Positions 17,530-30,531 of a stretch of 64,000 nucleotides of DNA are shown here, one piece after another. The DNA is from Edaphobacter lichenicola (GTDB lineage: Bacteria > Acidobacteriota > Terriglobia > Terriglobales > Acidobacteriaceae): positions 62,001-126,000 of the forward strand of contig NZ_JACHDY010000002.1 of NCBI RefSeq assembly GCF_014201315.1, read 5' to 3'. Within the stretch, counting starts at the first letter, position 1. Each line of letters begins with the position of its first letter. A program made the translations under genes and the position numbers. The notes beneath the pieces are model-generated. The model had not been told where the DNA came from and searched no databases. It worked only from the letters and a program-made list of their open reading frames with translations.

Positions 17530-19083
17530 TTGACGAATCGAAGTCTCTTTACCCAGTCTCTCCGTGCCCAGATCTTCTGCGGCTTCCTGATCGCCGCTGT
17601 CACGCTGGGACTTACAGCCTGCGGCCCGTACTACTACAAGTTTCCCCAGTTTCCCTTCGCCAACCGGCCGATTCCGCCCAGCAAGCTTGCCCAACGCGTG
17701 ATGGTGGGCGTCACGGCGAACGGCGGCACCAGCGGCAGCCTGCAGATCCTCGATGCGAAGCGTGACCTGCGCAACAACGTCGAGAACACCCGGACGTCGT
17801 TCTCGATCAGCGGCTACTCCTCCGGCTATCCCAACCTCATCCTCAACTTCCCCTCTGAGATCGCCGGGTACGTCTACTCCAACACTCTGGGCGACGTGCA
17901 GATCATCAACTATGGCACCGAGTCCGCCACCGGTTCTGCCGGCACCTTCCCGGCCAGGTCCACCAGCATCGCTGTCCCGCCAACCTTCGGCCACGTCTAC
18001 TCGGCCGAAGAGGGCGCCGGCCTACTCGGGATCATCGACAAGACCACGGGAGGGACCTACGCGCTCAACCTGCCGAATGTCTTCCAGGTCGTTGTCAACC
18101 AGGGCGACACGGTCATCCTGGCGATGGTCCGCAACTCCAACTCGCTCTACCGCGTCATCAAGCTGAACGCCAGCCAGTACACCACCTCAACCGCCGCAAT
18201 TGCCGCGATTGGCGCGGTCGACTGCCAGCCCTTCAACCTTCCTATCTACTGCGTCATCCCGGTCAACACCGGAAGCAATACGAGCGCCTTCGACCGGCCC
18301 GCTGGAGCCTACTTCTCCCTCGACGGCAACACGGTCTACGTTCTCAACTGTGGCGCAGAGTGCGGTGGAACCACCTCCAGCATCACCTACCTGCTGCCGG
18401 GCGCGCTCCAGGTCAACAGCTACACCAACAGCACCGTCCCGGCACAGCAGAACCCCAACGCCTTCTCCTCCAATCTCCCGGTCCCAGGCGGGGTTACAAC
18501 GGCAGTCTCGGATGGAAATAATCTTTACGTAGCCGGTCAGCAGCGGCAGCCCGACGGCCTCTTTGCCGGCAACCTCTCCATCATCAGCCTCGCGACCAAC
18601 GCTGTCACCAGCACCGTCTCCATCTCCGACGGCACTCACACCAAGATTCTCTTCGCCGACGACAATACGCTGTGGATCGGCTCCCAGCTCTGCGCCACCG
18701 GCGAGCGCGCGGCCCGTGCCGCCCAGCAGATCGCAACCGGCCAGGCCACCGACCAGAGCGCCAACTACAACTGCCTCACCCGCGTGGTTCTGCCGTCGGG
18801 TTCCACCGGGGCCAGCGCATTCATCGTTCCTGCGGTCACACAGAGCGCAACGTCGCCGGTCGTCGTCCCTTACCCCAACACGAACCAGAACCAGTACTAC
18901 TATGGCGACCTGACCGGCCTCTGCTGGGTCCAGGGCTTCCACAAGGTCTACACCGCCTACGGTGGACAGGTCCACGTCTTCAACACTACGGACGGCTCCG
19001 AGATCAACAACGCCAATGTTACCGTTCAGGGAACAGCGCTCGACGTTGCCTACCTGGACGCTGTCACCGACGCAGCCAACTAA
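17530..19083 (+). CDS. Predicted lipoprotein with beta-propeller-like repeats
   Basis: A 517-residue exported protein. The N-terminus has a signal sequence ending in a lipobox (TLGLTAC), so it is probably anchored to a membrane by lipid. The rest is rich in short beta-strands separated by Gly/Asn/Asp turns, with repeated motifs such as GYVYSNTLGDVQIIN, NTVYVLNCG and NNLYVAG, resembling YVTN/NHL-type beta-propellers. A pair of cysteines (CGAEC) lies mid-protein. Function unknown; surface adhesion or scaffolding is only a guess. Start is TTG 17530 with GGAG ten bases upstream. Confidence 0.72.
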   Translation: MTNRSLFTQSLRAQIFCGFLIAAVTLGLTACGPYYYKFPQFPFANRPIPPSKLAQRVMVGVTANGGTSGSLQILDAKRDLRNNVENTRTSFSISGYSSGYPNLILNFPSEIAGYVYSNTLGDVQIINYGTESATGSAGTFPARSTSIAVPPTFGHVYSAEEGAGLLGIIDKTTGGTYALNLPNVFQVVVNQGDTVILAMVRNSNSLYRVIKLNASQYTTSTAAIAAIGAVDCQPFNLPIYCVIPVNTGSNTSAFDRPAGAYFSLDGNTVYVLNCGAECGGTTSSITYLLPGALQVNSYTNSTVPAQQNPNAFSSNLPVPGGVTTAVSDGNNLYVAGQQRQPDGLFAGNLSIISLATNAVTSTVSISDGTHTKILFADDNTLWIGSQLCATGERAARAAQQIATGQATDQSANYNCLTRVVLPSGSTGASAFIVPAVTQSATSPVVVPYPNTNQNQYYYGDLTGLCWVQGFHKVYTAYGGQVHVFNTTDGSEINNANVTVQGTALDVAYLDAVTDAAN

Positions 19084-19208
19084 GGGTGTAGGGTGTAGTG
19101 CTCAGGGTGTAAAGCCTAGGGCTCGGGCAGGGGAGAGAGGCAGGATCTTCCTTGGACCTAAACCCTGCACCCTAAACCCTGCACCCTAAGCCCTGCACCC
19201 TAAGCCCC
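19083..19208. repeat. Inverted arrays of heptamer repeats before bshB1
   Basis: The first array, from 19083, consists of AGGGTGT-type heptamers (19083, 19090, 19104, with degenerate units at 19097, 19111 and 19118). After a 35-bp spacer, a second array of seven heptamers alternating AAACCCT/GCACCCT fills 19160-19208. The arrays are complementary in sense (AGGGTG against CACCCT) and could fold into a long imperfect hairpin. The second array ends one base before the bshB1 ATG. Confidence 0.9.
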
Positions 19209-19209
19209 T

Positions 19210-19941
19210 ATGTCCTCGCCCGCTCAACTCGACATCCTCGCTATTGCAGCCCATCGCGACGACGTCGAGCAGACCTGCGGCGGCACTCTGATGGCCATGC
19301 ACGCCCGCGGCTGGACCACCGGCATCCTCGATCTCACCCAGGGCGAGTCAGGCACCCGCGGCACCGCCGCCGACCGTGAAGCCGAGGCCAACGCCGCCGC
19401 CCGCATCCTCAACGTCGCCCATCGCGAGGCTCTCGACCTTCCCGACGGCAACATAGAGAACACCCTGGCCAACCGCCTCAAACTGGCCGCCGTCCTCCGC
19501 CGCCTGCGCCCCCGCGTCGTGATCCTTCCCTACTGGCAGGGCCGTCATCCCGACCACTACACCTCGGCCACGCTGGGCTATGAAGCCTGCTTCGTCAGCG
19601 GCCTCGCCAAGGTCGTAACGCCCGGCGCCCCCCACCCGCCGCATCGGCCCTACAAGATCCTCTACGCTAGCCTCTACGCCGACGTGCGCCCCACCTTCGT
19701 CGTCGACATCACGCCCTTTGCCGAGCAGCGCCTGCAGTCTCTGCTGGCCTACCGCTCGCAATACGGCGCGCAGCCTGAAGGCACTGGCCTCTTCGTCCCC
19801 GAGGAGGAGATTCGCGAGCGAACCTTCGCCACCGCCCGCCACTACGGCCTGCTGGCTGGAGTCCGCTACGCCGAGCCTTTTGTTCAGAAGGAAGTAAGTC
19901 TTGTTGATGACATCATGACCCTTCCTGTCCAATCAATCTAG
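19210..19941 (+). CDS. BshB1-like PIG-L deacetylase (bacillithiol pathway)
   Basis: Zinc-dependent N-acetylglucosaminyl-malate deacetylase type, 243 residues. Zinc ligands are seen in AHRDDVEQ (usually AHPDD; the proline is arginine here, the His and Asp residues are kept) and in WQGRHPDHYTS. The C-terminal GVRYAEPFVQKE is typical of BshB1. Such enzymes perform the second step of bacillithiol synthesis. No bshA or bshC is in the window, so the pathway link is family-based. The ATG has no Shine-Dalgarno: the 49 bases upstream are heptamer repeats. Confidence 0.75.
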   Translation: MSSPAQLDILAIAAHRDDVEQTCGGTLMAMHARGWTTGILDLTQGESGTRGTAADREAEANAAARILNVAHREALDLPDGNIENTLANRLKLAAVLRRLRPRVVILPYWQGRHPDHYTSATLGYEACFVSGLAKVVTPGAPHPPHRPYKILYASLYADVRPTFVVDITPFAEQRLQSLLAYRSQYGAQPEGTGLFVPEEEIRERTFATARHYGLLAGVRYAEPFVQKEVSLVDDIMTLPVQSI

Positions 19942-27987: not shown

Positions 27988-30531
27988 TCACATCAGGTGC
28001 ACCGCATCCACGTCGACCACCAGGTTCCGGCGCGCAATCCCCTGCGTCTCCGCGTACGCCAGCATCGCCCGCAGCGTCTCGCCCAGCGTCTGCCGCCGCT
28101 CCGCCTTCAGCACAAAGTGGTAGCGATAGATCCGCTTCAGCCGCACAATCGGAGCCGCCGCCGGCCCCAGCACCCGCACCTTATCCAGCCGTGCCTTCTG
28201 AAACCATCGCCCCAGCGTGCCCGCCCACCCCGTAGCCTCCTCCAGCTTCTCGCTCTGAATGACCACATTGGCCAGCACAGCATACGGCGGGTAGTGCATC
28301 CACCGCCGGTATTGCATCTCCTTCGCCACAAACCCCGGATAGTCATGCTTCGCAGCGAACTGAATCGCATAGTGATCCGGGTGATACGTCTGCACCAGCA
28401 CCTTGCCGATAAGATCCCCGCGCCCCGCCCGGCCCGACACCTGCGTCAGCAACTGAAACACCCGCTCCGCCGCGCGAAAGTCCGGCAGCCCCAGCTGAAA
28501 GTCCGCCCCCACGACTCCCACCAGCGTCACCCCGTGAATGTCATGTCCCTTGGCGATCATCTGCGTCCCCACCAGCAGGTTAATCTCGCCCCCATGCAGC
28601 CGCGCCAACAGCCGCTCCATGTCGCTCCTCCCGCGCACGGTATCGCGATCCATCCGACCGATCCGCGCCGTCGGAAACAGCTCCTGCAGCCTCTCCTCTC
28701 CCTGCTGCGAGCCCACCCCAAGAAAATAAAGATGTTCACTCTCACACTTCGGACAAGCCTTCGGCACCGACCGCCGCGATCCGCAGTAGTGGCACTCCAG
28801 CCTCTGCCCCGGCTGCGCAATCGCATCATTCCCGCTCACCGGCTTGTGGTAGGTCATCGACACCGCGCAGTTCTCGCACTCGATCTTCTCCCCGCAGCTC
28901 CGGCACAGCACCGTCGATGAGTACCCACGCCGATTCAACAACAAGATCACCTGCTCTCCGCGATCGAGCGTAGCCTGCGTCTCCTCCATCAACCTCCGCG
29001 AAAAGATCTGCTCCTGCCCCGTCTCGCGAAACTCCTCCCGCATATCCACCAGCTCAACCAGCGGCAGCGGCCTATCCGCAACCCGCGCGCGCATCTCCAC
29101 CAGCGCATAACGCCCCTTCTCTGCATTCGCCCAGCTCTCGAGCGACGGCGTCGCCGACCCGAGCACCACCACTGACTCATTCAGCTTCGCCCGCATCACC
29201 GCAACATCGCGCCCGTGATACCGCGGCGTCTCCTCCTGCTTGTAGCTCGAGTCGTGCTCCTCATCTACGATGATCAGCCCCAGATCCACCATCGGCGCAA
29301 ACACCGCCGACCGCGTCCCCACCACGATCCTCGCCTCGCCCCGCCGAATCCTGTGCCACTGCTCCGCCCGCTCATCCGGCGTCAGTTGAGAGTGCAAAAG
29401 CGCCACCTCACCACCAAACGCCGCCACCATCTGCCCCGCCATCGCCGGCGTCAACCCAATCTCCGGCACGAGCAGCAACGCGCTCTTCCCCGCATCCAAA
29501 GCCCGCTGCATCGCAGCAAAATAAACCGAAGTCTTCCCGCTCCCCGTAATCCCATACAGCAGATGCGGTTTGAAACCACCCTTCTCCATTGCCGCCGCAA
29601 TCGTCCCCAGCGCCTCCATCTGCGCTTCATTCAAAGCATGTTCATGCGCATGCTTCTTCCCCTCCGCGCCCACGCCGCCCAGATGAAACTCCTCCGCAAC
29701 CTCTTCAATCCCCACCAGTCCACGCTTCACCAGCGTCCCCAGTGTAGACTCCGGCACTCCCGCGCGCGTCAGGCTAAGCCGCAGATCCCGTACCCGCATC
29801 CGCCCACCCACCGCCGCCAGCTCCGCCATCACCGCCAGCTGGTTCTCATTCAACCGCGGCAGTCGCCCTCCGACAGGCTTTTGCTCGCTACTCCCTACGC
29901 CCTCTTCCCTACTCCCTAAGCCCTGCACCAACACCGCCACCTTCTCCAGCCGCCGCGCATCCCGCTCCTCCGCCACCGCCTCGCGCACCAACCACTTCTT
30001 CCGGACCATCCCCTCCAGCAGCCCCTTATTCGCCCCCGTAGCCGACCGCAGCGCCGACATCTTCGCCACCTCGCCCCCCTCCAAATAATTCAGCACCGAG
30101 TACTCGCGATTCTGCTCCTCCACCGTCAGCTTCGATCGCCGCGAAGACCCCTTCACCGCCCCCTCATACAACACCCTCCGACCAGCCTCAGCGATCCGAT
30201 AAGAAAAATGCCGCTTCACCTCCGCCGCCAGCGGCAGCATCCCCCGCAGCACCTCGCCAAGCGGAGCGACATAGTACTGCGCAATCCACGCCGCCAGCTT
30301 CATCAACTCCTCCGGCAGCAGGGCGGCCTCATCCAACACCTGCTGTACCGGCTTGATCTCAAACTCCTCCGCCGGCGCATCCTCATGCACCCGAACCACC
30401 ACGCCCATCAGCCTCTGCCCACTGAACGGCACCAGCACCCGCGCCCCCACCACGGGCACAAGCCCATTCACCCCATAGGTAAATGTCTGGTCCAGCGGCA
30501 CCGGCAAAGCAACATCACAAAACTGCGGCAT
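27988..30531 (-). CDS. priA: Primosomal protein N' (replication restart helicase)
   Basis: 3'-5' DNA helicase of 847 residues that reloads the replisome at stalled forks. The N-terminal 3'BD domain begins FCDVALPVPLDQTFTYGV. The helicase core has Walker A GITGSGKTSVY, DEEHDSSYKQ and GSATPSLES. Eight cysteines form the two zinc sites (CRSCGEKIECENC and CHYCG...CPKC). Near residues 200-215 the sequence GLGSREEGVGSSEQ is encoded by an array of 7-bp repeats and looks like an insertion into the linker before the helicase core. Confidence 0.95.
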   Translation of the reverse strand: MPQFCDVALPVPLDQTFTYGVNGLVPVVGARVLVPFSGQRLMGVVVRVHEDAPAEEFEIKPVQQVLDEAALLPEELMKLAAWIAQYYVAPLGEVLRGMLPLAAEVKRHFSYRIAEAGRRVLYEGAVKGSSRRSKLTVEEQNREYSVLNYLEGGEVAKMSALRSATGANKGLLEGMVRKKWLVREAVAEERDARRLEKVAVLVQGLGSREEGVGSSEQKPVGGRLPRLNENQLAVMAELAAVGGRMRVRDLRLSLTRAGVPESTLGTLVKRGLVGIEEVAEEFHLGGVGAEGKKHAHEHALNEAQMEALGTIAAAMEKGGFKPHLLYGITGSGKTSVYFAAMQRALDAGKSALLLVPEIGLTPAMAGQMVAAFGGEVALLHSQLTPDERAEQWHRIRRGEARIVVGTRSAVFAPMVDLGLIIVDEEHDSSYKQEETPRYHGRDVAVMRAKLNESVVVLGSATPSLESWANAEKGRYALVEMRARVADRPLPLVELVDMREEFRETGQEQIFSRRLMEETQATLDRGEQVILLLNRRGYSSTVLCRSCGEKIECENCAVSMTYHKPVSGNDAIAQPGQRLECHYCGSRRSVPKACPKCESEHLYFLGVGSQQGEERLQELFPTARIGRMDRDTVRGRSDMERLLARLHGGEINLLVGTQMIAKGHDIHGVTLVGVVGADFQLGLPDFRAAERVFQLLTQVSGRAGRGDLIGKVLVQTYHPDHYAIQFAAKHDYPGFVAKEMQYRRWMHYPPYAVLANVVIQSEKLEEATGWAGTLGRWFQKARLDKVRVLGPAAAPIVRLKRIYRYHFVLKAERRQTLGETLRAMLAYAETQGIARRNLVVDVDAVHLM
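29890..29924. repeat. Heptamer array inside the priA coding region
   Basis: Five consecutive 7-bp units ending in CCCT: ACTCCCT, ACGCCCT, CTTCCCT, ACTCCCT, AAGCCCT, followed by GCACC. This is the same style of repeat as before bshB1. Thirty-five bases is not a multiple of three, yet the priA frame stays open. Confidence 0.85.

Follow-up and report, generated by a model that had tools for sequence, protein, structure and literature searches.

What are the two facing arrays of heptamers that stand immediately ahead of bshB1, the bacillithiol biosynthesis deacetylase gene of Edaphobacter lichenicola, and do they take the place of its ribosome-binding site, as an original prediction made from the sequence had proposed? 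We analyzed a stretch of 64,000 nucleotides (hereafter, the window) in which the following features bear on this question.

17530 to 19083, plus strand: upstream open reading frame (ORF) with an uncertain start codon and no Pfam or NCBIfam match, family unknown
19083 to 19121, plus strand: 5' arm of G-rich AGGGTGT-type heptads, with four clear units at 19083 to 19110 and decaying units after them
19111 to 19156, no strand: spacer between the arms, 46 nt, in whose place five relatives have a PF05635 gene
19157 to 19208, minus strand: 3' arm, made of seven heptads that are rich in G on the minus strand and read CCTAAACCCTGCAC x3.6 on the plus strand
19210 to 19941, plus strand: bshB1 (TIGR04001, E 7e-67; PIG-L domain PF02585), without a Shine-Dalgarno (SD) site

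The arrays and their spacer occupy the whole 126-nt gap between the stop codon of the upstream ORF and the ATG of bshB1. The stop codon TAA (19081-19083) shares its last base with the start of the G-rich array, and the C-terminus of the upstream ORF is kept ahead of bshB1 throughout the genus. The 5' arm reads, in order, AGGGTGT AGGGTGT AGTGCTC AGGGTGT and then decays to about 19121, and the 3' arm was reported by TRF as 3.6 copies of the 14-mer CCTAAACCCTGCAC with 97% matches. The sequence confirmed that two facing heptad arrays able to pair lie ahead of bshB1, since the two arms have opposite sense; the claim that the second array stops one base short of the ATG was likewise borne out (19208 versus 19210, with a single base between). 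The RNA of the gap was predicted to fold with z = -2.5, none of 200 shuffles being equally stable, and its hairpin score was 8.2 standard units above mononucleotide shuffles (z = 8.2). The arrays are not a product of chance, because the pattern AGGGYKYAGGGYKYAGGGY, with one mismatch allowed, had 28 matches in the bacterium's own genome and 0 for the reversed control; it was present in 28 of the 62 genomes of the genus. An Rfam search returned sub-threshold microRNA matches only. A single unpaired run of like heptads also occurs elsewhere in the window, at 29889-29927, within a priA-like coding sequence (27988-30531, minus strand), where it is translated as the linker residues VQGLGSREEGVGSSEQ of the protein.

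With regard to translation, bshB1 does lack a Shine-Dalgarno site, as had been stated: its best pairing with the anti-SD sequence was only -0.5 kcal/mol. The further claim, of an array put in place of the ribosome-binding site, was not supported. Judged by predicted pairing, the array displaced no such site and most bshB1 genes of the genus lack a strong one, because the SD was weak in 36 of 43 orthologues whatever occupies the gap; pairing of -5 kcal/mol or stronger was found in the other 7/43. Orthologues without an SD site include some that have no array and some that have an ordinary terminator-like hairpin in the gap. SD sites exist in the genus, for example GAAGGAGATC ahead of rplQ, and a weak SD would therefore be a property of bshB1 itself. 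These data, and the fact that such arrays adjoin the start codons of many unrelated genes, make it extremely unlikely that the feature is a structured or leaderless start with an array in place of the ribosome-binding site, although the absence of a Shine-Dalgarno site and an array ending one base ahead of the ATG are what that reading would predict. Minimum-energy and centroid folds of the gap disagreed on the sequestration of the bshB1 start codon. A start codon farther downstream is improbable because the family model TIGR04001 matches from residue 7 already.

The gap ahead of bshB1 differs among orthologues: it may hold a facing heptad array, an ordinary hairpin or a complete additional gene, or be nearly absent (7 nt in genome G032). 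The extra gene belongs to PF05635, the 23S rRNA intervening-sequence protein family (IVP/S23), whose members form a four-helix bundle. In five genomes (G041, G048, G043, G006 and G047), a PF05635 gene lies between facing heptad arrays at the same spot ahead of bshB1, and in a sixth (G038) the PF05635 ORF at this spot is internally deleted, its ends being kept between the arrays. Since relatives are gene-bearing or deleted at the same spot, the window may be regarded as one state of a gene-bearing, deleted or gene-less locus, and these relatives suggest that its copy descended from a gene-bearing one. The arms of the window enclose no PF05635 gene, only the 46-nt spacer, and so the feature can be classed as a gene-less form only; no IVP remnant is visible in that spacer. 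Several details of the related loci were also recorded. The stop codon of the IVP gene overlaps the ATG of bshB1 in G048 (TAATG). One relative has two copies of bshB1 about 24 kb apart on a single contig (G047:C26; loci L081 and L110), and the IVP element accompanies just one of them. In IVP-bearing or IVP-deleted relatives (loci L077, L084, L086 and L088), the C-rich array shares the reading frame of bshB1 and might form an N-terminal extension of it.

The same comparison bears on whether the stem is an independent hairpin, that is, a terminator or mRNA-end stabilizer of the upstream gene that was lengthened by heptad slippage and into which IVP genes merely insert. A significant hairpin was found in 21 of the 28 orthologous gaps of at least 45 nt, and several of these stems are ordinary and terminator-like (G033, G007, G016 and G023). 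However, the window has no U-tract, its 126-nt gap is too small to hold a promoter of bshB1's own, some relatives have hairpin-free gaps of 7-25 nt, and the AGGGTGT-type unit also borders a PF05635 gene in the same genome. We therefore consider this explanation unlikely.

We favor instead, with a probability of about 0.68, the view that the window contains the gene-less form of a dispersed intergenic stem-loop element resembling 23S rRNA intervening sequences (IVSs), whose complete form carries a PF05635 gene. The complete form consists of a stop codon, G-rich heptads, the PF05635 gene, a facing C-rich array and a co-directional start codon; this architecture was seen at the bshB1 spot in relatives, in the bacterium's own genome with the unit of the window, and across phyla. 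The window itself has two facing period-7 arrays, the G-rich arm 5', with co-directional genes on either side. In its own genome, a PF05635 gene broken by one TAG (C6:18157) has AGGGTGT-type arrays on both sides, which are of the same kind as the unit of the window. That genome contains three more gene-less pairs besides the window, again with the G-rich arm first and again at gene junctions. Weighing against this view, arrays are kept in genomes that have no PF05635 gene at all (G008, G009 and G014). Another complete facing pair (L032 2735-2807; G000:C1:720234-720306; fold z = -7.1) has a secretin gene on one side and the hydrophobic core of a prepilin-like gene on the other, and it seems to be translated as the leader of the prepilin; the same matched units recur in an array of G014.

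The association of PF05635 genes with inverted arrays extends far beyond this genus. PF05635 loci were collected from the genus, from named genomes of many phyla, from the phylum, from paralogues within single genomes and from ten further named genomes, the many-phyla and phylum samples being best-scoring matches. The 5' flank of each gene was aligned with the reverse complement of its 3' flank, and the 99th percentile of 1518 control placements served as the cut-off. Flank pairing exceeded this percentile for 103 of 131 IVP genes, and inverted flanking arms were found at 136 of 164 distinct IVP loci, as against about 1% of control placements; clear arms were absent at 28/164. Among named loci from outside the Acidobacteriota, 50 of 61 had inverted arms. 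The median flank-pairing score was 20.4 for IVP loci and 9.0 for neighboring ORFs (p = 2e-28). Of 91 strongly periodic arms, 78 had a period of 7 or 14, whereas shuffles gave 8 periodic arms of scattered period. The 5' arm was G-rich at 119 loci and C-rich at 16, and a co-oriented ATG lay within 25 nt past the 3' arm at 71 of 136 loci, compared with 9 on the other strand as a control; the window agrees with the IVP loci in having a co-oriented ATG right after its 3' arm. The unit mostly differs among paralogues of the same genome, and at loci with clear arms it is matched on the two sides of the gene. Elements with octad rather than heptad arrays, for example with GCTGACTT units, were observed at five loci (L116, L122, L124, L225 and L241).

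Three measures from this survey were set aside. That the 5' arms might serve as three-frame stop cassettes was rejected, since the two arms exceeded shuffles alike (0.38 and 0.37 versus 0.16 and 0.07). The 5' arm appeared to begin at a median distance of 0 past the stop codon, a value that was not used because stop triplets within the arrays inflate it. IVP identity and array similarity were correlated (rho 0.17, 0 of 300 permutations), a relation that is confounded by relatedness and hence was not taken as proof of cognate binding.

The units themselves bear on another explanation, put forward for the repeats of Xanthomonas and Nostoc, in which the arrays are simple repeats that form G-quadruplexes and have a regulatory role. 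Seven GGG runs follow one another at 4-nt spacing on the minus strand of the 3' arm, a sequence that would allow a quadruplex, and the position beside stop and start codons agrees with that report (PMC4692102). At least four GGG runs were present in only 22 of 136 IVP-flanking arms, however, and IVP-flanking units such as TTAGTTG, AGTACTC and TCAGCTC have the same architecture and are unable to form three-tier quadruplexes. Quadruplex formation was rejected as the common denominator of the arms on account of the former count, and as an account of the window we hold it to be very unlikely.

A likeness to known heptanucleotide repeats had also been proposed, and it is upheld by the G-rich heptads with the unit GGGNATC that Rehm et al. 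(2015, PMC4692102) described in Xanthomonas and Nostoc, and for which a function was not found. In Xanthomonas, 70 and 75 convergent pairs were counted in two genomes, the sense G-rich copy being right after a stop codon and the antisense copy right before a start codon, with variable copy number (PMC4692102). The window arrays share the period of 7, the G-richness, the intergenic and convergent placement and the position beside stop and start codons, but their unit is AGGGYKY. PMC4692102 links its repeats to no gene or mobile element, whereas the arrays described here are tied to PF05635 genes. Rhodanobacter sp. DHB23 has a single PF05635 gene with GGGATTC arrays on both flanks; this unit (GGGATTC/GGGAATC) is of the type studied in Xanthomonas (PMC4692102), and it gave 124 matches in the genome versus 0 for the control. 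Among the first 100 of these 124 matches, there were at least 14 convergent and 0 divergent gene-less pairs, with gaps of 18-92 nt. The window arrays are most closely related to two groups, namely the elements that surround PF05635 genes and, in Xanthomonas, the convergent G-rich heptads (PMC4692102).

Many hairpin-forming inverted doublets of short units for one associated gene are likewise characteristic of REPINs and their REP-associated tyrosine transposases (RAYTs) (PMC3116915), and Y1_Tnp genes are present in both genomes examined. The window could thus be thought to hold a REPIN-like miniature DNA transposon moved by a RAYT. Unlike REPINs, however, its arrays are tandem heptads and not palindromic REP units, and the gene between arrays is PF05635, not a transposase. 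No Y1_Tnp gene was flanked by the AGGGYKY or GGGATTC unit, arrays of the resident unit being near 0 of 5 Y1_Tnp loci. Such an origin has very little chance of being correct. The TAACTGA repeats of Beggiatoaceae (PMC4679880) are also intergenic heptads near start codons, but they are direct repeats almost without an inverted partner and have another unit. The Avd/bAvd proteins of diversity-generating retroelements have a fold related in sequence to PF05635, and IVP-Avd homology has been noted (PMC10053308); the bAvd model gave a weak match, below curated cut-offs.

In Coxiella, the IVS of 23S rRNA carries a PF05635-type ORF, ends in inverted repeats, is excised by RNase III and contains tandem heptamers that vary in number among strains (PMC4990558). 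The intergenic elements resemble it in having a PF05635-type ORF between stem-forming termini, tandem heptamers and ORF decay (PMC4990558). The termini of the window feature likewise form a predicted stem, but the feature lies between the upstream ORF and bshB1, outside any rRNA gene, its arms are heptad arrays and it has no ORF. By analogy, the intergenic element may work as 23S rRNA intervening sequences do: the facing arms would be part of the transcript of the flanking genes and form a long stem-loop, which might possibly be cut by RNase III, and the insert would be tolerated because it is placed between genes. The IVP gene could then be lost through decay or internal deletion, the remaining arrays could be lengthened by slippage, and bshB1 would be expressed regardless, from a start that does without a strong Shine-Dalgarno site in most members of the genus.

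A broader proposal, to which we give somewhat less than even odds, is that PF05635 genes define a large and mostly unrecognized selfish class in which the gene is accompanied by its own facing heptad arrays and gene-less derivatives are scattered, with the Xanthomonas heptads and 23S IVSs as members and the IVP acting on the arms. We found no paper that joins PF05635 to heptad arrays in the open-access literature searched. The reading given here would bring together repeat families with a gene family that earlier work had treated apart. Intergenic heptamer repeats of bacteria have repeatedly been described with no function assigned, while PF05635 has a solved structure (2GSC, XCC0516) and no known function. 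The link gives each of them a partner, as the protein could bind its own arrays, in the form of RNA or DNA, and could move or maintain them, and it suggests where the intervening sequences that interrupt 23S rRNA may have come from.

Gain and loss of the element are visible at the gap between rpoA and rplQ. Five genomes of the genus have a PF05635 element in this gap, whether intact or broken (L114, L115, L123, L128 and L130). The bacterium's own genome has the element at this site. In 11 close relatives whose RplQ is 97-99% identical and whose upstream region was read, another sequence stands there, related from one genome to the next and in most of them with a GC-rich hairpin. The lineage-specific gain was not taken as transposition; replacement by recombination would be as likely, because IVPs at the same site are each other's nearest relatives. 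The orientation of the PF05635 elements in this gap is always that of rplQ.
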